A stretch of 64,000 nucleotides of DNA, from positions 4,774,001 to 4,838,000 of the forward strand of contig NZ_CP059165.1 in the NCBI RefSeq assembly GCF_013466425.1. The letters are read 5' to 3'. The notes below the pieces were generated by a model. It was not told where the DNA came from. It saw only the letters and a list, made by a program, of their open reading frames with translations, and made no database searches. Below are positions 54,171 to 64,000 of this stretch, in pieces. The translations under genes were made by a program, and so were the position numbers. Source of the DNA: Mycobacterium vicinigordonae (lineage in GTDB: Bacteria; Actinomycetota; Actinomycetes; Mycobacteriales; Mycobacteriaceae). Positions within the stretch are counted from its first letter, which is position 1. Each line of letters opens with the position of its first letter.

Positions 54171-55130
54171 TCATGCTCGATGTCGCAGTGCCCGCAGGAA
54201 GAAGCCCAGATTCGCAGGCCGCTCGGCGAGTCGCCGCATGAAATACCCGTACCACTGGGTGCCGAACGGTACATACACGCGCACTCGGCTACCTGCGCCG
54301 GCCAGCCGCCGCTGCTCGTCGTCGCGGATCCCATAGAGCATCTGGTACTCGAAATCATCTACACCGCGGCCTGATTCGTCTGCATAACGTGGGGCCGCGG
54401 CGATGATCGCCGGGTCGTGCGAGGCCACCATTGGATAGCCCCGACCGTCCATCAACACCCGCAGGCAGCGCAGGTACGAATCGGTGATCGCATGGGCACC
54501 CCGGTGGGCGACCGATGCAGGCTCGTCGTAGGCGCCCTTGCACAACCGCACACGAGCGTCGGCCAGGTCGCGACAATCGCCGACAGTACGAACTAGGTAG
54601 GCCTGCAAAGCCGTGCCAAGCCAAGGAAAGTCGACCCGCAGGTCACCCGAGATCGACAATGTCGAGTCGGTGGTGGTGTGGTCCTCGGCGTCGACGGTGA
54701 CCCAGACGCCCACCGCGGCGGCGCGCTCACAGATGGCACGGGCGTTATCCAGTGCAATCTTCTCACCGTCGCGCTTCAGCGCCTGCCCCAGCGCCGACAG
54801 CTTGACCGACACCTCCAGCGGCCGCACACCCTGGCGTGCGACGTCGACCCGACTGCCAAGCGCATCAACTAGATCCAGGTACGCGCGCACGGTGGCCGCG
54901 GCGTCGTCGGCGTCGGTGACGTTTTCACCCAGGTAGTCGATGCTGATGTGCCGTCCGGAATCACACAACGCGGCAACGATATCCATCGCACTGGCCAGGC
55001 TCTCGCCGGGCACGAACCTGCGCACCACCCGGCGTGTCACCGCCGAGTGCTCAACGAAGCGGCGCAACCCGTCGGCCCGGCCGGCCGCGAGCAGTGCCGG
55101 GCGGGCGGTGTGCGCGAACACCCCGGACAT
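54171..55130 (-). CDS. pruB: Proline dehydrogenase PruB
   Basis: This FAD-dependent proline dehydrogenase oxidises proline to pyrroline-5-carboxylate and passes electrons to the respiratory chain. It has 319 residues. The TIM-barrel motifs include SIDYLGENV, VSVKLSALG, VTVDAEDHT, RLCKGAY and the C-terminal YVPFGTQWYGYFMRRLAERPAN that contacts substrate and flavin. The ATG overlaps the pruA stop as TGATG, so the two enzymes are made together, which suits channelling of the unstable intermediate. Confidence 0.95.
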   Translation of the reverse strand: MSGVFAHTARPALLAAGRADGLRRFVEHSAVTRRVVRRFVPGESLASAMDIVAALCDSGRHISIDYLGENVTDADDAAATVRAYLDLVDALGSRVDVARQGVRPLEVSVKLSALGQALKRDGEKIALDNARAICERAAAVGVWVTVDAEDHTTTDSTLSISGDLRVDFPWLGTALQAYLVRTVGDCRDLADARVRLCKGAYDEPASVAHRGAHAITDSYLRCLRVLMDGRGYPMVASHDPAIIAAAPRYADESGRGVDDFEYQMLYGIRDDEQRRLAGAGSRVRVYVPFGTQWYGYFMRRLAERPANLGFFLRALRHRA

Positions 55131-56773
55131 CAGGCCTGACCCGCTTCACGGGCCATATGGGGATAGGAGTGCTCAGTGGCCGGCACGAATGTCTCTTTGA
55201 TGGTGCGCGCTGACGTCCAGCGCAGCAGGTTCAGCGGCGACCCGGCCTTGTCGTTGGTGCCGGACCCGCGAGAGCCGCCGAACGGCTGGCGTCCGACTAC
55301 GGCGCCGGTCGGCTTGTCATTGACGTAGAAGTTGCCCGCCGCGAACCGCAGCCGCTGCAAAGCAGTCAACACCGCGGCGCGGTCATCGGCGATCACCGCG
55401 CCGGTCAACGCATAACGAGACCCGGTGTCTACGACGTCGAGGATTCGCTCGTACTGGTCGTCGGGGTAGACGTGTACCGACAGCAGCGGCCCGAAGTATT
55501 CGGTGGCGAACGCCTCGTCGGTGGGGTCGTCGGACAGCAGCACGGTGGGCCGCACGAAATACCCTTCGCTGTCGTCGTATTCGCCGCCGACGGCGATGGT
55601 GATCCGCGCAGCGCCCTTGGCCCGCTCGATCGCGTCGACGTTCTTGACGAACGCCCGCCGGTCGATCAACGCGCCACCGAAGTTGGTCAGGTCAGTGACG
55701 TCTCCGTAGGGCAAAGTCGACGCGCTGTGCAGGAATTCGTCTCCCATTCGCTGCCACACCGAATGCGCGATGTAAGCCCGCGACGCCGCCGAGCATTTTT
55801 GGCCCTGATAGTCGAACGCGCCCCGGATCAGTGCGGTCGCCACCACCTCGGGGCGGGCCGAGGTGTGCGCGACCACGAAGTCCTTGCCGCCGGTCTCACC
55901 GACTAGCCGCGGATAGCTCTGGTAGGCAGAGATATTGGCGCCCACTTGCTGCCACAGGTGCTGGAAGGTGGCCGTCGATCCGGTGAAGTGGATGCCGGCT
56001 AGCCGCGGATCGGCCAGCGCCACATCGGATACCGCGTAACCGTCGCCGGTGACCAGGTTGATTACCCCGGGCGGCAGACCCGCTTCCTCCAGCAGCTGCA
56101 TGGTCAGGTATGCCGCCAACGTCTGGGTGACCGAAGGCTTCCACACCACGGTGTTGCCCATAAGTGCGGGCGCAGTCGGCAGGTTGGCCGCGATCGAGGT
56201 GAAGTTGAACGGGGTGATCGCGTAGACGAAGCCGTCCAGCGGACGGTAGTCGCTGCGGTTCCACTCCCCGGCGCCGCTGATCGGTTGCTGCGCCAGGATC
56301 TGGCGGGCGAACGCGACGTTGAATCGCCAGAAGTCGATCTGTTCGCACGGCGCGTCGATCTCGGCCTGATACACCGATTTCGACTGGCCCAGCATGGTGG
56401 CCGCCGCGATCCGCTCCCGCCATGGCCCAGCCAGCAGCTCGGCCGCCCGCAGCAGCACCGCGGCGCGTTCATCGAAAGGTGTTGCAGCCCAAGATGCCTT
56501 GGCAGCCATGGCCGCCTCGACGGCGGCGGCGGCATCGGCGTGGGTAGCGTTGGTCAGCGTGCCCAGCGTCGCGGCGTGCCGGTGCGGCTGGACGATGTCG
56601 ATCCGTTCGCCGTCGCCCATCCGGTGCTGCCCGGCAATGACGTGCGGCAGGTCGATCGGGTTGGCGGCAAGTGCCTGCAATTCACCGCGCAGGCGGCGGC
56701 GCTCGGGTGATGTCGGTGCGTAGTCGTGGGCTGGCTCGTTGGCCGGCATCGGTACTTCAGTGATGGCGTCCAT
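55130..56773 (-). CDS. pruA: Pyrroline-5-carboxylate dehydrogenase PruA/RocA
   Basis: This 547-residue NAD-dependent aldehyde dehydrogenase converts glutamate semialdehyde to glutamate, the second step of proline breakdown. The active-site Cys is in GQKCSAASRAYIA, the Glu in VGETGGKDF and the Asn in TPFNFTS. The ATG at 56773 matches the family N-terminus (MDAITEVP); an upstream frame of 18 codons is not used. It is divergent from the PucR-type regulator, and a palindrome lies in the promoter gap. Confidence 0.95.
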   Translation of the reverse strand: MDAITEVPMPANEPAHDYAPTSPERRRLRGELQALAANPIDLPHVIAGQHRMGDGERIDIVQPHRHAATLGTLTNATHADAAAAVEAAMAAKASWAATPFDERAAVLLRAAELLAGPWRERIAAATMLGQSKSVYQAEIDAPCEQIDFWRFNVAFARQILAQQPISGAGEWNRSDYRPLDGFVYAITPFNFTSIAANLPTAPALMGNTVVWKPSVTQTLAAYLTMQLLEEAGLPPGVINLVTGDGYAVSDVALADPRLAGIHFTGSTATFQHLWQQVGANISAYQSYPRLVGETGGKDFVVAHTSARPEVVATALIRGAFDYQGQKCSAASRAYIAHSVWQRMGDEFLHSASTLPYGDVTDLTNFGGALIDRRAFVKNVDAIERAKGAARITIAVGGEYDDSEGYFVRPTVLLSDDPTDEAFATEYFGPLLSVHVYPDDQYERILDVVDTGSRYALTGAVIADDRAAVLTALQRLRFAAGNFYVNDKPTGAVVGRQPFGGSRGSGTNDKAGSPLNLLRWTSARTIKETFVPATEHSYPHMAREAGQA

Positions 56774-56800
56774 GGTGGTCAGGATCCCCTGAGCCGGCGC

Positions 56801-56820
56801 CCGATCAGTTAGCTGATCGG
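56801..56820. promoter_or_regulatory. Palindromic operator between pruA and the PucR gene
   Basis: CCGATCAGTTAGCTGATCGG has perfect 8-bp arms around a 4-bp centre. It is midway in the 82-bp divergent gap, placed to act on pruA and the regulator. The regulator next door is the obvious candidate binder. Confidence 0.6.
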
Positions 56821-56843
56821 ACAACATTAGGACACCTATCTAG

Positions 56844-56849
56844 TAGAAT
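56844..56849 (+). promoter_or_regulatory. -10 box of a leaderless PucR-type regulator
   Basis: TAGAAT lies 6 nt before the ATG at 56856. This is a good -10 match and no ribosome-binding site is present. Confidence 0.55.
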
Positions 56850-56855
56850 CAGACA

Positions 56856-58427
56856 ATGCACGGTGCGGGCGTGGGCCTCGGCCAACTCTTGCTGGCGCTG
56901 GACGCGACCATGGTCAGCCTGGTTCAGGCGCCCCGCGGCCTGGATCTTCCGGTGACCTCGGCCGCGCTGATCGACTCCGACGACGTACGGCTGGGTTTGG
57001 CCGCAGCAGCAGGATCGGCCGACGTGTTCTTTCTGCTCGGTATTGCTATAGATGAGGCGGTGCGTTGGATCGCCGGTCAGCACAGCAAGCCGATCGCGCT
57101 GTTCGTCAAGGATCCGGCGGAGCCATTGGTGACCGCCGCGGCGCGGGCCGGGTCGGCGGTGGTGGCCGTGGAGCCGCAGGCTCGCTGGGAACGGTTGTAT
57201 CAGCTGGTGAACCGAGTGCTGGCGCATCACGGCGATCCCGCGGACGACGACCCGGGCACCGACTTGTTCGGCCTGGCGCAATCCCTGGCAGACCGTATCC
57301 ACGGCATGGTCAGCATCGAGGACGCGCAGTCACACGTGCTGGCGTATTCGGCGTCCAACGACGAAGCCGACGAACTGCGCCGGCTGTCCATCCTGGGTCG
57401 CGCGGGCCCGCCGGAGCATCTGAAGTGGATAGGCCAGTGGGGGATCTTCGACGCGCTGCGCTCAGGCAGCGAGGTGGTACGCGTCTCCGAACGGCCGGAA
57501 CTGGGACTACGTCCGCGGCTGGCAATCGGCATGCATCAATTGAGCGACCCGCGGGTGTTCGCCGGCACCATCTGGGTGCAGCAGGGTTCCCGTCCGCTGG
57601 CCGAGGACGCCGACGAGATGTTGCGCGGCGCCGCGGTGCTGGCCGCCCGAATCATGTTCCGGTTGGCCGCCCGGCCGTCTCACCAGACGCGACGGGTCCA
57701 GCAGTTGCTCGGTCTGGATGACGGCGAACCCGCCGACGTGGCGGGCATTGCCCGCGAACTCGGTCTGCCCACTGACAGCGACGTCGCGGTGATCGCCTGG
57801 GACGCCGTCGTGCCCGCCGAGCGGACGGCCAGGCTGGCCGACATACTGGCGTTGAGCGCCAGTGCCTTTCGCCGCGACGCCCGGGTCGCCGCCGACGGGT
57901 CGCGGATCTACACGCTGCTCCCGGCGATCTCGACGCCGCGCGCGATCGGCTCCTGGGTGCGCGGCACTGTCGGCGCACTGCGCGCGGAACTGGGGACCGA
58001 ACTGCGCGCTGTCATCGCCGCACCGGTCGCCGGTTTAGGCGCAGTCGCGGCTGCCCGTGTCGAGCTGGACCGGGCGCTGGACAGCGCCGAACGCCACCCC
58101 GGCACCCTCGGCCAGGTCACCAGCCTGGCCGAAGCCCGCACCACCGTGCTACTCGACGAGATCATCAACCGGATCGGAGCCGACCAGCGCCTGGTCGATC
58201 CGCGGGTGCGCGAATTACGCGCCCGAGATCCGGTACTGGCCGAAACCCTGAGCGCCTACCTGGACTGCTTCGGCGACATCGCCGCCGCCGCCACCCGGCT
58301 GCAGGTGCATCCCAACACGGTGCGCTACCGGGTGCGCCGGATCGAGAAGCTGCTTTCCACCTCGCTGGCCGATCCCGATGTGCGGCTGCTCTTTTCGTTG
58401 GGGTTGCGGGTTGCCGATCGAGGCTAG
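56856..58427 (+). CDS. PucR-family regulator of proline catabolism (Rv1186c, PruC type)
   Basis: This 523-residue regulator has the PucR layout. An N-terminal sensory region covers about 1-250, a central GGDEF-like degenerate domain about 290-420 and a C-terminal helix-turn-helix about 455-515 (AYLDCFGDIAAAATRLQVHPNTVRYRVRRIEKLL). The Rv1186c product is thought to activate proline-degradation genes in response to proline, and the divergent position to pruA-pruB supports the same job here. Codon use is like that of its neighbours. Confidence 0.92.
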   Translation: MHGAGVGLGQLLLALDATMVSLVQAPRGLDLPVTSAALIDSDDVRLGLAAAAGSADVFFLLGIAIDEAVRWIAGQHSKPIALFVKDPAEPLVTAAARAGSAVVAVEPQARWERLYQLVNRVLAHHGDPADDDPGTDLFGLAQSLADRIHGMVSIEDAQSHVLAYSASNDEADELRRLSILGRAGPPEHLKWIGQWGIFDALRSGSEVVRVSERPELGLRPRLAIGMHQLSDPRVFAGTIWVQQGSRPLAEDADEMLRGAAVLAARIMFRLAARPSHQTRRVQQLLGLDDGEPADVAGIARELGLPTDSDVAVIAWDAVVPAERTARLADILALSASAFRRDARVAADGSRIYTLLPAISTPRAIGSWVRGTVGALRAELGTELRAVIAAPVAGLGAVAAARVELDRALDSAERHPGTLGQVTSLAEARTTVLLDEIINRIGADQRLVDPRVRELRARDPVLAETLSAYLDCFGDIAAAATRLQVHPNTVRYRVRRIEKLLSTSLADPDVRLLFSLGLRVADRG

Positions 58428-58434
58428 CCAGGCA

Positions 58435-59322
58435 TCAACCCGCAGCAATCGACACGAGGACGAAGGTTCGCACCCGCCCCGGCACCGACGCGTGGCACAT
58501 CGACAGCAGCGGCTCGGACATTTCCTCGGCGAGCACCACCTCCACCGGACCCGAGTCGCTGGCAAGCAGAACGCGAATCTGATGCTCGCCGCGCTGCACC
58601 TTGAGCGGTGACAATGCTGCGATACGCTGCTCCCCGGACGCTTGACGAGCGAAATATTGCGCGGCTTGAACTGGATGCGGGAGACAGGTGCGTCCACGCA
58701 GGAACGCGTTGTCCAGCCGCCCGTCGAGATAGAGGTCGACGAGTCTGGCCGAATCCGTCGCGTCGACTCTCCCATAACACAGGCCTTCCGGCAGGATCAG
58801 CATCGTCGCCGCAAACCTGTCACCACCCAGATGTGAGCATTCCCAGGTGAATTCGGGATATCGCTCCGCGATGGTCGCGGTCGCGGCCCGACCACGCACC
58901 GCGCAACACTGGTCATGCTTGCCGTGTGCGCAGACCGCGACAAGCGGATCGGTCAGCAGTTGACCGTCGGAACCGTCTAACGCGATGTCGAGATACTGTT
59001 CGGGCGCGTCGACCTCGCCCTGCCAGAGTTCCTCTTCGCCTTCATCTGACCGCGCGAGGAACCACCGCCATCGCGGATCGCGAGATCGCCGCCCCGGTCG
59101 GCGTATCGCGGCGACCCGCATGCCTGCCGTCTCTGCCCGACGGGCAATTGCTCGCCCCAGCGCGGGAGGAAGGATCGTCTCGGAGTTGAGGAACGCCGAA
59201 TGTCCCCAGGCGCCAGGGATTTCGAACATGGCCCACGCGTGTCCCGCCGACGCTGTGCCGTACATCGGATCGTTGCGGGCACGCGATTGATCGCTGCACG
59301 GCGTCCGTTTGACACCGCTCAT
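58435..59322 (-). CDS. Sucrase/ferredoxin-like Fe-S protein
   Basis: This 295-residue member of the sucrase/ferredoxin-like family has a thioredoxin-like fold that normally carries a [2Fe-2S] cluster. Its signature is clear: VCAHGKHDQCCAVRG with Cys131, Cys139 and Cys140, then WECSHLGGDRFAATMLILPEG with Cys162 and His164. The family often has GGHRF where this protein has GGDRF. The start lies 7 bp after the cupin stop, so it is the last gene of the peptide-cupin unit. As the only redox protein there, an electron-donor role is plausible but not shown. Confidence 0.88.
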   Translation of the reverse strand: MSGVKRTPCSDQSRARNDPMYGTASAGHAWAMFEIPGAWGHSAFLNSETILPPALGRAIARRAETAGMRVAAIRRPGRRSRDPRWRWFLARSDEGEEELWQGEVDAPEQYLDIALDGSDGQLLTDPLVAVCAHGKHDQCCAVRGRAATATIAERYPEFTWECSHLGGDRFAATMLILPEGLCYGRVDATDSARLVDLYLDGRLDNAFLRGRTCLPHPVQAAQYFARQASGEQRIAALSPLKVQRGEHQIRVLLASDSGPVEVVLAEEMSEPLLSMCHASVPGRVRTFVLVSIAAG

Positions 59323-59329
59323 CGGCGGG

Positions 59330-60544
59330 TCATTCCCAGGCCGCCGCGGGCACCACGACGGCTTCGCGCAGCAATCGCCGAATCAGCACCGCCGCGTCAG
59401 CCTGATCCAGGCCTGGGGTGGCGGCCGCATCGACAATTAGTCCGTCGTGCAGCGCCCGGAGGGCAAGCGCACACGAATCCGGGAAGGTCATGGTGCGATC
59501 CGGTAGACGCAAAACCACCTGGCCACCGCCGCTTTCGATCGCCCCGATCAGGCCGCGGCGCCACTGCACCGGCGTGCGGCTGGCCGATTCGGCGGCCCGC
59601 AACGAGGCAAGCGGACGAACGGGCGCCGGCCGGGTGCGTTGCGCATGCCGTCGCGTCAGCCGCTCGGCCGCCTGCTCTCCGATTGCCGTCGCTTCGTGAC
59701 GCAGCGCGTCGACGACCTCGGCCATGACCTTGGTCGCTGTCGCCGTCATCTCATCGCGGTCGGTGAGGTCGGCGCCCACTGCCAAGGACTTGCGGAACGC
59801 GGGGTATTCGGCCAGCACATCGACGACCGCCTGCACCACGTCCAGCTGGGTCACCGCACCAACTCCGATGGTCAGGTGGATCGAGGTGGATTGCGTCGAG
59901 TGCGCCGAATGCACCCAGCCGCGCGGCAGATAAAGCGCGTCGCCGGGCGACAACACCGTGTCGATAACCGGCTCGCCGGTGACCCGTTCGGCGATGGCCA
60001 CTCGGTGATTGGTCCACGGTTGCGACGGCACCGGGTCCTCGTGCACAGGTGCGTGCACACTCCACCGCTTATGGCCCCCCACTTGCAGCACGAACACGTC
60101 ATGGACGTCGTAGTGCGCATCGAAGCCACGGCTGTCCGGCGGGGTGATGTAGGCGTTGGCCTGCACCGGATGCCCGAGCTCGTCGACCATGCCACGAACA
60201 AACTCGATGATCGGCGGCCACAACCGGTGCAGGCCCTGCAGCACAATTGTTGCGCCGGAAGCGAACTGGGCCAAGACCTTGGCGGGATCCAGTTGGTCGG
60301 GCATCTCGGCGCCGAAGCCGCCGGACCCCAGATAGCAATCCCGCGCCAACAGGTCTCCGTGCTTGACCATCCGGATGAACGGCGCGCGGACCCCACGTTC
60401 GGCGATCAGTTCGTCGACAGCTGCCGGTGAGAGCAGATCGGTGAAATCGCGGGGCAACTCGTCTGTCCGGCTGAGCAACGGCAAGCGTCCCCAGTGGTCG
60501 GCCGCGAACGCCGCCGGATTGGTGGCGACGCACCGACTCAGCAT
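59330..60544 (-). CDS. JmjC-type cupin oxygenase next to a repeat peptide
   Basis: This 404-residue cupin is related to ribosomal oxygenases (ROXA/YcfD), Fe(II)/2-oxoglutarate enzymes that hydroxylate amino-acid side chains in proteins. The iron ligands are visible as His144 and Asp146 (AHYD) and His212 (LPRGWVH). A C-terminal winged-helix-like region runs to the end. I prefer the ATG at 60544, 10 bp after the peptide stop. An ATG at 60583 inside the last peptide repeat would add 13 residues (MTEEPTEPHKRAA). Its natural substrate is probably the peptide encoded just upstream. Confidence 0.88.
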   Translation of the reverse strand: MLSRCVATNPAAFAADHWGRLPLLSRTDELPRDFTDLLSPAAVDELIAERGVRAPFIRMVKHGDLLARDCYLGSGGFGAEMPDQLDPAKVLAQFASGATIVLQGLHRLWPPIIEFVRGMVDELGHPVQANAYITPPDSRGFDAHYDVHDVFVLQVGGHKRWSVHAPVHEDPVPSQPWTNHRVAIAERVTGEPVIDTVLSPGDALYLPRGWVHSAHSTQSTSIHLTIGVGAVTQLDVVQAVVDVLAEYPAFRKSLAVGADLTDRDEMTATATKVMAEVVDALRHEATAIGEQAAERLTRRHAQRTRPAPVRPLASLRAAESASRTPVQWRRGLIGAIESGGGQVVLRLPDRTMTFPDSCALALRALHDGLIVDAAATPGLDQADAAVLIRRLLREAVVVPAAAWE

Positions 60545-60554
60545 CGCGGCTCGC

Positions 60555-60797
60555 TTATGCGGTTCCGTCGGCTCCTCCGTCATGTCCCTCGGGGTTGGAG
60601 CCACCGTCAGCGGGGCCTTCGCCGGCCGTCCCGTCGGCGCCTCCGTCGTGACCCTCGGGGTTGGAGCCACCGTCAGCGGGGCCTTCGCCGGCCGTCCCGT
60701 CGGCGCCTCCGTCATGTCCCTCGGGGTTGGAGCCACCGTCAGCGGGACCCTCGCCGCCGTTGCCGGTGGTGGTGATGTCTTCGTCGTCGAGTGCCAT
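60555..60797 (-). CDS. Small repeat peptide: 14-residue leader and three identical 22-residue repeats
   Basis: The 80-residue product begins MALDDEDITTTGNG. It continues with three perfect copies of a 22-residue unit rich in Gly, Asp, Ala and Pro that contains one Asn, one His and one Pro-Glu. The ATG has GAGAGGA seven bases upstream. The three DNA copies differ at eight positions, all third positions, and none changes an amino acid, so selection acts on this frame. The composition is acidic, soluble and unstructured. The cupin gene follows after 10 bp. The arrangement suits a ribosomally made, modified peptide. I have an unverified memory of similar mycobacterial peptides being labelled BatC. 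Confidence 0.85.
   Translation of the reverse strand: MALDDEDITTTGNGGEGPADGGSNPEGHDGGADGTAGEGPADGGSNPEGHDGGADGTAGEGPADGGSNPEGHDGGADGTA
60558..60755 (-). repeat. 66-bp tandem repeat, three copies, coding
   Basis: Three 66-bp units make up most of the peptide gene. Because 66 is a multiple of three, all frames stay open through the array. That is why the cupin frame can be extended upstream and why an extended N-terminus should not be trusted. Copy number is likely to vary between strains. Confidence 0.92.
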
Positions 60798-60992: not shown

Positions 60993-61796
60993 GTGGCCGA
61001 TCATCCGTCGTCATATCTGGTGCTGGCATCCCAGCGCAGTGGCAGCACCCTGCTGGTCGAGTCCCTGCGTGCCACCGGTGTAGCCGGCGAACCGCAGGAG
61101 TTCTTTCAGTACCTGCCCAGCACCAGCCAGTCCCCGCAGCCGCGTCAGTGGTTCGCAGATGTCGACGACGAGTCGATCCTGAGCCTGCTCGATCCGTTGG
61201 ACGAAGGCAAGCCCGACCTCGCCCCCCCGGAGATCTGGCGCGACTACATCCGCACGGTCGGCCGCACCCCCAACGGGGTATGGGGCGGCAAACTGATGTG
61301 GAACCAGACGCCCTTGCTGCTGGACCGGGTAGCCGGCCTCAATGAAAGGTCGGGCGACGGCCTGCTGGCCGCGATCCGCGACGTCGTCGGCGAGGACCCT
61401 CTGCTCATCCACATCCACCGACCTGACGTCGTCTCCCAGGCCGTCTCGTTCTGGCGTGCCGTGCAAACCCGCGTGTGGCGGGGGCGGCCCGACCCGGTCC
61501 GCGACGCACGCGCCACCTATCACGCCGGTGCGATCGCGCATGTCGTGAAGATGTTGCGGGCTCAGGAAGAGGGCTGGAAGAACTGGTTCGAAGAGGAGAA
61601 GGTGGAGCCGATCGAGATCTCCTACCCGGTGTTGTGGCGCAACCTGACTCAGGTGGTGGGCGACATCCTCGAACGGCTGGGAATGGATCCGAGGCTGGCG
61701 CCGGAGCCGGTTCTGCAGCGGCAGGCCGATCAGCGGTCGGACGAATGGGTGGACCGCTACCGGGCGGACGCCGAAAGTGAGGGATTACCAACATGA
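60993..61796 (+). CDS. stf0: Trehalose 2-sulfotransferase Stf0
   Basis: Stf0 transfers sulfate from PAPS to trehalose, giving trehalose 2-sulfate, the first step to sulfolipids and related sulfated trehaloses. It has 267 residues, the family length, and matches the M. smegmatis and M. tuberculosis enzymes along the whole chain. The 5'-phosphosulfate loop is SQRSGSTLL at residues 13-21. The 3'-phosphate site and the substrate segment ([29 protein letters not shown]) are intact. The GTG start is at 60993. The stop overlaps cysD as ATGA, so it is coupled to the enzymes that make its donor. Confidence 0.94.
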
Positions 61797-62722
61797 CCAC
61801 CCATACCGAATCTCGGACCGACACCCGGCGGGTAGACGAGTTGCGGCTGCTGGAAGCCGAAGCGGTACACATCATCCGCGAGGTCGTCGCCGAACTGGAG
61901 CGACCGGTGCTGCTGTTCTCGGCCGGCAAGGACTCGATCGTGTTACTTCGCCTAGCGGAGAAGGCTTTTCGGCCGCTACCGCTGCCGTTTCCGGTGATGC
62001 ATGTCGATACCGGACACAATTTTCCCGAAGTGATCGAATTCCGCGACCGCCGCGTCACCGGGGCCGGACACAAACTGATCGTGGCCTCAGTGCAGGAGTC
62101 CATCGACAAGGGCCGGGTGCCCGACCCGGGACCGAGTGCCTCACGCAACCGCGCCCAGACCCGCACCCTGCTGGACGCGCTAGAGGCCGGGGGCTTCGAT
62201 GCCGCTTTCGGCGGCGCGCGCCGCGACGAGGAACGTGCCCGCGCCAAAGAGCGAATCTTGAGTTTCCGCGACGAGTTCGGCCAGTGGGACCCGCGCGCCC
62301 AGCGGCCCGAGCCGTGGACGCTCTACAACGGCCGGATCAAGAAGGGTGAACAAGTACGGGTGTTCCCACTGAGCAACTGGACCGAGCTGGACGTCTGGCG
62401 CTACATCGAGCTGGAAGACCTGGAAATACCTTCGATCTATTACGCCCACGAGCGCGAGGTTTTCGAACGTGACGGGATTCTGTTGGCGGTGTCGGAATAC
62501 GCCCGCCCGCGCAACGGAGAAAGCGCGGCCGTGGAGTGGGTGCGCTACCGCACCGTCGGCGACCTCACCATCACCGGGGCGGTGCGCTCCACCGCCACCG
62601 ACATCAGCCGGGTAATCGTCGAGATCTCGGCCGCCACGGTCTCCGAGCGCGGTGAGACCCGCGCCGACGACCGCACCTCGGCCGCCGCGATGGAAGACCG
62701 CAAGCGAGAGGGTTATTTCTGA
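61793..62722 (+). CDS. cysD: Sulfate adenylyltransferase subunit CysD
   Basis: CysD is the catalytic subunit of ATP sulfurylase and makes APS from ATP and sulfate when driven by the GTPase CysN. It has 309 residues. The PP-loop motif is [13 protein letters not shown] near residues 41-53. Other family segments are [33 protein letters not shown] and the C-terminal RKREGYF. It overlaps both neighbours (ATGA with stf0, TGATG with cysN), so the three proteins are translated in a coupled series. Confidence 0.96.
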
Positions 62723-64000
62723 TGACCGTTGCCGACGAAGAAGTACTGCCCCCCAAGGGGATAACGCGCCAACTCCTGCGCATCGCGACCGCTGGCTCGG
62801 TGGACGACGGCAAGAGCACCCTCATCGGACGGTTACTGCACGACACCGACAGCCTGCCGCTGGACCACCTGGAGGCGGTTACCGACGAGGAGGGCATTGC
62901 CGACCTGGCCGCCTTGTCCGACGGTCTGCGCGCCGAACGCGAGCAAGGCATTACCATCGACGTCGCCTACCGGTTCTTCTCCACGCAGACCCGTAGCTAC
63001 ATCCTGGCCGACACGCCCGGCCACGAGCGATACACCCGCAACATGTTCACCGGAGCCTCCAACGCGCACGTTGCGATCCTGCTGGTCGACGCGCGCGCCG
63101 GCGTGCTGCGCCAGACCCGCAGGCATGCCCGGATTGCAAAACTGTTGGGCATCAAGCACTTTGTCGCTACCGTGAACAAGATCGACCTGATCGATTTCGA
63201 CCAGTCGGGCTTCGACAAGGTGGCCGAGGAACTCGCTCAGGTGGCGGCGCGTCTGGGCGAGGTGGACATCACGGTCATCCCGATCGCGGCCAAGCACGGC
63301 GACAACGTCGTGCATCGCTCCGAGCGCACGCCGTGGTACAGCGGTCCCACCCTGCTCGACTACCTCGAGAACGTGGAACTCGCTGCGCCGCAGGCCGAAG
63401 CGTCGCGACTACGGCTGCCGGTGCAATGGGTGTCGCGGCCAACCGCCGAACAGCGCCGCCGCTACACCGGGCGGCTGGCCGCCGGGACGCTGCGCGTCGG
63501 TGACCCGGTGGTAACGCTGCCTGCAGGCACCCGGTCGACGGTGACCTCACTGGACACCCTAGATGATGAACGCACCACGGGCGTTGCGCCCCTTTCGGTT
63601 TCGATCGAGCTGGCCGACGACATCGACGTGGGCCGCGGAGACGTGTTCATCAGCGGCAGCGAGGACGCGGTTCCACCGGTGCTGGCCCGCGAGCTCGACG
63701 CGACGGTGTGCTGGTTCGTCGACAGCCCGTTGCGGGCCGGTGATCGGCTGGCACTCAAGCAGACCACCAAAACAGTGCGCGCCACCGTCCAGGAACTGCA
63801 CGCCCGGCTGGATCCGGAGACTCTCGACGAACTGGACAGGCCAGTGGAGTTGGTGCTCAACGACATCGGCACGGTGACACTGCGCACCAGCTCCGTCGTG
63901 ATCGCCGACCCCTATGAGGACAATCGGGACAGCGGTGCATTCATCCTGATCGACGAGACCACCAACGACACCGTCGGCGCCGGCACCATCATCGAGGCAC
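62722..64000 (+). CDS. cysN: Sulfate adenylyltransferase GTPase subunit CysN (CysNC), 3' end outside window
   Basis: The frame opens at the ATG at 62722, within the cysD stop, and stays open to the window edge (426 residues seen). It encodes the GTPase that drives APS synthesis. Walker A/G1 GSVDDGKS lies at about residues 25-32, G3 is DTPGH and G4 is NKID. EF-Tu-like beta-barrel domains follow from about 230. In mycobacteria CysN is usually fused to APS kinase CysC, which converts APS to PAPS. The C-terminal kinase part would lie beyond the edge, so the fusion is expected but not seen. Confidence 0.95.
   Translation, partial: MTVADEEVLPPKGITRQLLRIATAGSVDDGKSTLIGRLLHDTDSLPLDHLEAVTDEEGIADLAALSDGLRAEREQGITIDVAYRFFSTQTRSYILADTPGHERYTRNMFTGASNAHVAILLVDARAGVLRQTRRHARIAKLLGIKHFVATVNKIDLIDFDQSGFDKVAEELAQVAARLGEVDITVIPIAAKHGDNVVHRSERTPWYSGPTLLDYLENVELAAPQAEASRLRLPVQWVSRPTAEQRRRYTGRLAAGTLRVGDPVVTLPAGTRSTVTSLDTLDDERTTGVAPLSVSIELADDIDVGRGDVFISGSEDAVPPVLARELDATVCWFVDSPLRAGDRLALKQTTKTVRATVQELHARLDPETLDELDRPVELVLNDIGTVTLRTSSVVIADPYEDNRDSGAFILIDETTNDTVGAGTIIEA

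Follow-up and report, generated by a model that had tools for sequence, protein, structure and literature searches.

Peptide, oxygenase and iron-sulfur protein genes in the window

We analysed a window of 64,000 nucleotides from Mycobacterium vicinigordonae (contig NZ_CP059165.1, positions 4,774,001 to 4,838,000 of the forward strand), in which three closely spaced genes on the minus strand encode a small repeat peptide rich in Asp, a JmjC-type oxygenase dependent on Fe(II) and 2-oxoglutarate (2OG), and an iron-sulfur (Fe-S) protein. The stop codon of the peptide gene lies 10 bp from the start of the oxygenase (cupin) gene, whose own stop lies 7 bp from the Fe-S gene. This spacing, and a peptide of 14 plus three times 22 residues, agree in full with what a sequence-only reading of the same DNA had described. 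The features are as follows.

60555..60797, minus strand: precursor-like peptide, 80 residues (leader MALDDEDITTTGNG followed by three copies of the repeat GEGPADGGSNPEGHDGGADGTA), conserved beside the cupin in relatives
60756..60797, minus strand: leader of the peptide, 14 residues, containing the acidic motif DDEDI, found again in many relatives
60690..60755, minus strand: repeat 1, 22 residues, from the sequence
60624..60689, minus strand: repeat 2, 22 residues, from the sequence
60558..60623, minus strand: repeat 3, 22 residues, running to the stop codon, from the sequence
59330..60544, minus strand: JmjC_2 Fe(II)/2OG oxygenase (cupin) of NO66/YcfD architecture, 404 residues, by profile, alignment and structure match
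58435..59322, minus strand: Suc_Fer-like protein (thioredoxin-like [2Fe-2S] ferredoxin), 295 residues, by profile and structure match

The peptide consists almost entirely of glycine, alanine and aspartate. Its repeats are identical as protein and vary in their DNA by silent changes only; each carries three Asp, one of them after His, which makes nine Asp per peptide. A purine-rich stretch resembling a ribosome-binding site, judged by eye, lies 5' of the peptide ATG. We took the cupin to start at MLSR; an in-frame ATG at 60583 is also possible and would overlap the peptide. No Pfam model matched the peptide at E<=0.001 and no NCBIfam model at E<=0.1. The name BatC, suggested in the sequence-only reading for such peptides, is indeed used by NCBI for a related one (Leifsonia poae, P0008). 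We set aside any equation with the aerotolerance protein BatC, a namesake for which no support beyond the name was sought or seen.

The cupin matches PF08007 (JmjC_2) in Pfam with E=3.7e-28 and aligns over its full length, by structure match, with NO66 and YcfD at ~22% identity. Its iron site is intact, as had been noticed from the sequence: H144-x-D146 and H212 are present, and the HxD...H site and Lys159, presumably the 2OG-binding Lys, are invariant in 53 of 53 aligned cupins (start positions in these alignments are approximate). Together with the structure match, these residues place the enzyme among JmjC oxygenases of the NO66/YcfD type, whose iron triad and 2OG-binding Lys sit in a double-stranded beta-helix.

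The third gene product matches PF06999 (Suc_Fer-like, E=1.2e-15). Its structural model (predicted local distance difference test score, pLDDT, 95.5) contains a thioredoxin-like ferredoxin domain; it matches Aquifex 1m2b with probability 1.00 and a template modelling (TM) score of 0.69 by target, at an E value of only 5.9e-3, and a profile match to 1f37 has E=0.0013. The ligand pattern reads C131-X8-C140 plus H164-X3-D168, both Cys and H164 being present in 41 of 41 proteins, and it departs from the CX8CXnHX3H set of Apd1/Aim32 at position 168, which is Asp in 40 and Cys in one. Two extra Cys, 139 and 276, are also invariant. Asp168 in place of the second His, taken with these two Cys, possibly points to an unusual [2Fe-2S] ligand set.

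Conservation of the peptide-oxygenase pair

Counts for the family refer to 301 Mycobacteriaceae genomes, in which a cupin match of 275 bits or more was taken as a strong ortholog. Cupin matches at E<=0.001 occur in 97 of these genomes, 87 of them strong. A search with the peptide gave 81 matches, one per genome and all within the 87 cupin genomes, and zero in the 214 genomes without a strong orthologous cupin. The six strong-cupin genomes lacking a peptide match all belong to genus g28; the expected place is taken by a diverged repeat peptide in five of them and is cut by a contig end in the sixth. In the window's genus all three genes were found in 13 of 29 genomes, while the other 16 gave neither a peptide nor an Fe-S match. 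The sequence-only reading had made its proposal of a modified-peptide system depend on the peptide being kept beside the cupin in other species, and it is: the pairing is one-to-one in the Mycobacteriaceae genomes searched and recurs in other families and classes of the phylum.

Locus counts were made on 130 cupin loci, hand-picked and not a random sample. They comprise 86 family loci (of 87 strong matches; in the one genome not fetched, G234, peptide and cupin adjoin, judged by coordinates), 40 class loci (37 with flanks from 47 non-Mycobacteriaceae genomes at >=300 bits, and three weaker ones at 189-205 bits) and four weak paralogues added deliberately as contrasts. The rule by which a peptide was accepted was free of any motif: a small open reading frame (ORF), ending <=700 bp upstream, in which 30 consecutive residues are rich in Asp and in small or polar residues. 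It was satisfied at 124 of the 130 loci (family 85/86, class 39/40, weak paralogues 0/4); the single family failure is a contig end and the single class failure a 204-bit relative. As a control, the rule was applied to 554 other mechanical ORFs (300 aa or more, in 40 longer loci), of which it accepted 33. Since 124 of 130 cupin loci pass against 33 of 554 control ORFs, an Asp-rich ORF lies upstream of the cupin more often than chance would give.

The pair extends well beyond the family. Cupin matches at E<=1e-20 are found in 125 of 394 genomes of the class, 63 of them above 300 bits, and at E<=1e-30 in 42 of 296 genomes at the level of the phylum. Outside the class we compared 19 loci, from 19 of the 29 genomes with a match (L252-L271 minus L261, a second copy of L101); 18 have an Asp-rich peptide directly upstream of the cupin and the last is a contig end. 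A scan of named genomes gave at least 582 confirmed relatives, 80 of which were kept for locus counts. The peptide rule was satisfied in 75 of these; in the five failures the repeat letters are visible but broken by frame breaks or N gaps, or cut by a contig end. In Cellulomonas xylanilytica (L224), for one, peptide, cupin and Fe-S gene follow each other directly. The 80 include Mycobacterium, Mycolicibacterium, Gordonia, Williamsia, Dietzia, Rhodococcus, Rhodococcoides, Antrihabitans, Herbiconiux, Cellulomonas, Curtobacterium and Subtercola, and a few isolates named only to a higher rank. A gene-encoded precursor-like peptide conserved beside a putative tailoring enzyme, the arrangement that marks ribosomally synthesized and post-translationally modified peptides (RiPPs), is what these loci share.

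A few loci depart from the usual picture in their own ways. At L091 and L095 the acidic peptide is of a different type, with the common ending DDPEL-x-GADL...GPT-x-EPGA, and no Fe-S gene is adjacent. The cupin at L259 is preceded by a long ORF whose repeat is another one, of the type ADGTDQGVxGGTYGPRDA. In genome G206 (L151) the cupin is present as two overlapping matches beside a peptide and an Fe-S gene, through sequencing error or decay.

The Fe-S gene follows the pair less strictly. It lies directly downstream of the cupin at 98 of the 130 loci (the adjacency rule skips G206, owing to its split cupin) and at 77 of the 80 named loci, and a match is found on the same strand at 16 of the 19 loci outside the class. 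In the Mycobacteriaceae an Fe-S match of 190 bits or more occurs in 64 of the 301 genomes, 63 of which also hold a strong cupin. An Fe-S orthologue without a detected cupin (G200:C47:10636-11379, 282 bits) comes from an assembly that is 88% complete and in ~340 contigs, perhaps a gap. Conversely, 24 of the 87 cupin genomes have no 190-bit Fe-S match; six are g28 genomes with a diverged adjacent copy, which leaves 18 that retain peptide and oxygenase without an orthologous Fe-S protein. Because of these 18 genomes, the Fe-S protein is auxiliary: linked, not obligatory.

An all-against-all comparison, made on the 40 class loci (5.4-20 kb) with every ORF that reached 110 aa, gave no fixed-position partner besides the peptide, the cupin and the Fe-S protein. 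A larger gene cluster was therefore rejected, as only the cupin (40/40), the Fe-S protein (31/40) and the peptide hold a fixed place; other ORF clusters are opposite-strand overlaps of these genes or families at scattered positions. No protease or transporter has a fixed place among the same ORFs, and none of the window neighbours scanned with Pfam and NCBIfam is an exporter or protease, as the sequence-only reading had also remarked. Housekeeping proteins could serve for leader removal and release.

The genes flanking the trio in the window look unrelated to it. Divergent from the peptide operon, at 60993-63999, lie a Stf0 trehalose 2-sulfotransferase (NF047724, 449.6 bits), CysD and a CysN-like ORF (the last assigned by eye), together a sulfation gene set. 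On the other side, at 54171-58427, are an L-glutamate gamma-semialdehyde dehydrogenase and a proline dehydrogenase-like gene, the latter below the NCBIfam cut-off; a PucR-type regulator is divergent from these proline catabolism genes and ends 7 bp from the Fe-S gene.

Repeat selection and the target residue

Peptides containing N letters were excluded from the counts of cores, selection and leaders. Repeat number, whose comparison across mycobacteria had been proposed, ranges from one to four blocks among 79 family peptides, 69 of which have three. For a test of selection, blocks were required to match the consensus at >=9/15 positions. Pairs of blocks within the same gene show 911 silent and 58 non-silent differences (proportion of silent differences, pS, 0.346; of non-silent differences, pN, 0.0077; pN/pS 0.022), so that the family repeats are under strong purifying selection at the protein level. 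The three block Asp are kept in 229, 230 and 230 of 230 family blocks. Asp, Gly and Ala are each present in all of 116 distinct peptide cores, His in 105, Asn in 80, Arg in 17, Lys in 16 and Cys in none. Ala precedes Asp in 861 cases and Gly follows it in 1139, ADG being the commonest context (756 counts); DGGADG units number 0 to 11 per peptide, with exactly three in 72 of the 116. From the block comparison and the core counts, it is the protein sequence that is selected, the repeat number varies, and Asp is the reactive residue that is never missing.

Outside the class the cores differ greatly (for example, DADGTDGDATDGTDGDATD-like stretches) and are still Asp-rich. In their leaders Ile or Val still comes after an acidic stretch, as in LTDEDITTV or LSDDDIETV. 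An acidic DxDI-type leader motif is present in 82 of 109 class peptides against 209 of 2180 shuffled sequences; by a looser pattern it is found in 18 of 18 peptides outside the class, with 154 of 2800 shuffled sequences over both sets, the match in L264 being to another stretch.

We consider it probable, judging from sequence and gene context, that the oxygenase has the peptide encoded beside it as its substrate and hydroxylates Asp in it at C3, and that the trio is a small operon which makes a ribosomal peptide and modifies it. The oxygenase would recognise the short acidic leader, the repeats or both, and would hydroxylate Asp residues of the repeats once each at C3 (the beta carbon), chiefly in Ala-Asp-Gly, to yield a peptide rich in beta-hydroxyaspartate. 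The Fe-S protein may be an accessory redox partner which, for instance, holds the oxygenase iron in the ferrous state, or may act on the product. Asp is preferred as the target over Gly and Ala on chemical grounds, because hydroxylation at C3 requires a side chain. There are JmjC-type precedents: NO66, MINA53 and YcfD hydroxylate side chains at C3 (PMC4543633), and Asp hydroxylation is possible for the JmjC enzyme FIH (PMC4543633, PMC9814778).

The sequence-only reading had left the target open between Asp, Asn and His, and the comparison of cores and repeats narrows the choice to Asp. Hydroxylation of the His or Asn of each repeat would fit the histidyl hydroxylases NO66 and MINA53, as they are described in PMC4543633, and a family in which 219 of the 230 repeat blocks contain His and 228 contain Asn. 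We nonetheless hold it to be very improbable. His is missing from 11 of the 116 cores and Asn from 36 (the L096 core has neither), the C-terminal 40-residue segments outside the class contain His in only 4 of 18 cases and Asn in 2 of 18, and 43 of the 58 non-silent repeat differences strike the His.

Chemistry of another kind on the same substrate (Gly or Ala might be oxidised, Asp might be desaturated or decarboxylated, or the Fe-S protein might take part in a two-step reaction) would suit the universal Gly, the nearly universal Ala and the adjacency of the Fe-S gene at 98 of the 130 loci, although JmjC-type enzymes are not known to require a dedicated external reductant. The side-chain C3 hydroxylation performed by all three of the relatives named above and the 18 family genomes in which peptide and enzyme persist though no orthologous Fe-S protein is encoded count against this alternative, which we regard as quite unlikely.

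It is also conceivable, if rather unlikely, that the oxygenase, like its relatives that modify the ribosome, works on a protein other than the peptide, and that the acidic peptide stays unmodified and serves the enzyme as inhibitor, pseudo-substrate, chaperone or metal buffer. Variable DGGADG arrays combined with strict repeat conservation are more readily understood for a substrate with many sites than for an inhibitor working one-to-one. Further, the distant paralogues of ~130 bits (L158-L161) have an Asp-rich peptide in 0 of 4 cases, and the peptide therefore belongs to this clade of the cupin family.

Several observations weigh against the peptide as a substrate hydroxylated at Asp. The cores contain Gly just as universally as Asp, and Ala almost as universally. 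The 9/15 requirement for blocks depresses pN somewhat, and the Asp-rich rule passes 6% of control ORFs. Two accepted class peptides, L091 and L095, are not clearly repetitive and were counted as doubtful among the 39. The acidic motif was not found in 27 of the 109 class peptides, including most of L077-L090 and genus g28, so that recognition through the leader is not universal. The C-terminal cupin domain has no Pfam match to PqqD or the RiPP recognition element (RRE): nine C-terminal pieces gave no PF05402 match at E<=10, the fold of this domain alone not having been searched. Finally, the nearest enzymes with a solved structure and a known activity have His or Arg as their target instead of Asp.

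What a hydroxylated Asp-rich peptide might do can be approached through iron. Beta-hydroxyaspartate has chelating power in siderophores. From this chemistry and from the company of iron proteins, one might picture a phylum-wide ribosomal poly-(beta-hydroxyaspartate), an acidic, disordered polymer whose hydroxylated Asp residues would chelate a hard metal, Fe3+ or Ca2+, while the Fe-S protein would reduce bound iron or set it free; such polymers would store metal or match, among ribosomal products, the siderophores built with hydroxyaspartate. We think this unlikely. A search for iron-type regulatory boxes covered 58 upstream regions, where the best match to an IdeR consensus was mostly no better than in shuffled sequence; six regions, possibly from related species, reach 13-14/19 against a shuffled maximum of 12. 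No upstream k-mer was clearly prominent in these regions, a few 8- and 10-mers lying slightly above the shuffles.

Comparison with known systems

A large clade of bacterial JmjC oxygenases, that of the relatives confirmed among named genomes, gains from this locus a candidate substrate that is dedicated and defined, in a compact system of two or three short genes. If the proposed Asp hydroxylation is true, it adds a class of Asp-hydroxylated multi-repeat peptides spread through a phylum, and raises the question of what use the cell has for a hydroxyaspartate polymer.

Among JmjC_2/Cupin_4 enzymes, NO66, MINA53 and YcfD share only ~22% identity with the present oxygenase, which, unlike them, adjoins a gene for an Asp-rich peptide. 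The present family also keeps residues of its own, R53, P55 and Q128 in 53/53 cupins and Q103 in 52/53, each of which is found in <=1/5 paralogues. FIH, an asparaginyl hydroxylase acting on ankyrin repeats, is similar as a JmjC enzyme that works on repeats and has some Asp substrates (PMC4543633). The Fe-S protein resembles Apd1/Aim32, as these are described in PMC8482512, in its thioredoxin-like ferredoxin domain, its CX8C spacing and the first His of CX8CXnHX3H, and differs in the replacement of the second His given above.

The likeness to the biphenomycin enzyme BipG is one of arrangement, since BipG, according to PMC12707348, is a JmjC enzyme encoded with a precursor peptide, one of whose residues it hydroxylates. 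BipG is, however, an ornithine hydroxylase from a larger cluster that also contains multinuclear non-heme iron-dependent oxidative (MNIO) and radical S-adenosylmethionine (SAM) enzymes, whereas the present system has two or three conserved genes and cores with multiple Asp. Bregman et al. 2025 (PMC12710340) report on eukaryotic RRE-JmjC fusions whose nearest homologues among bacterial JmjC proteins, at ~30% identity, are encoded in RiPP-like genomic settings. These PF08007 proteins with RRE-like domains could include the present family; the section concerned gives no peptide, motif or operon, and the present cupin differs in having no RRE/PqqD match in Pfam. JmjC enzymes in RiPP pathways are thus already known, and the open-access literature that we searched held no description of this peptide family. 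The comparison suggests that an Asp-repeat peptide encoded with its oxygenase is apparently undescribed and is widespread in actinobacteria.
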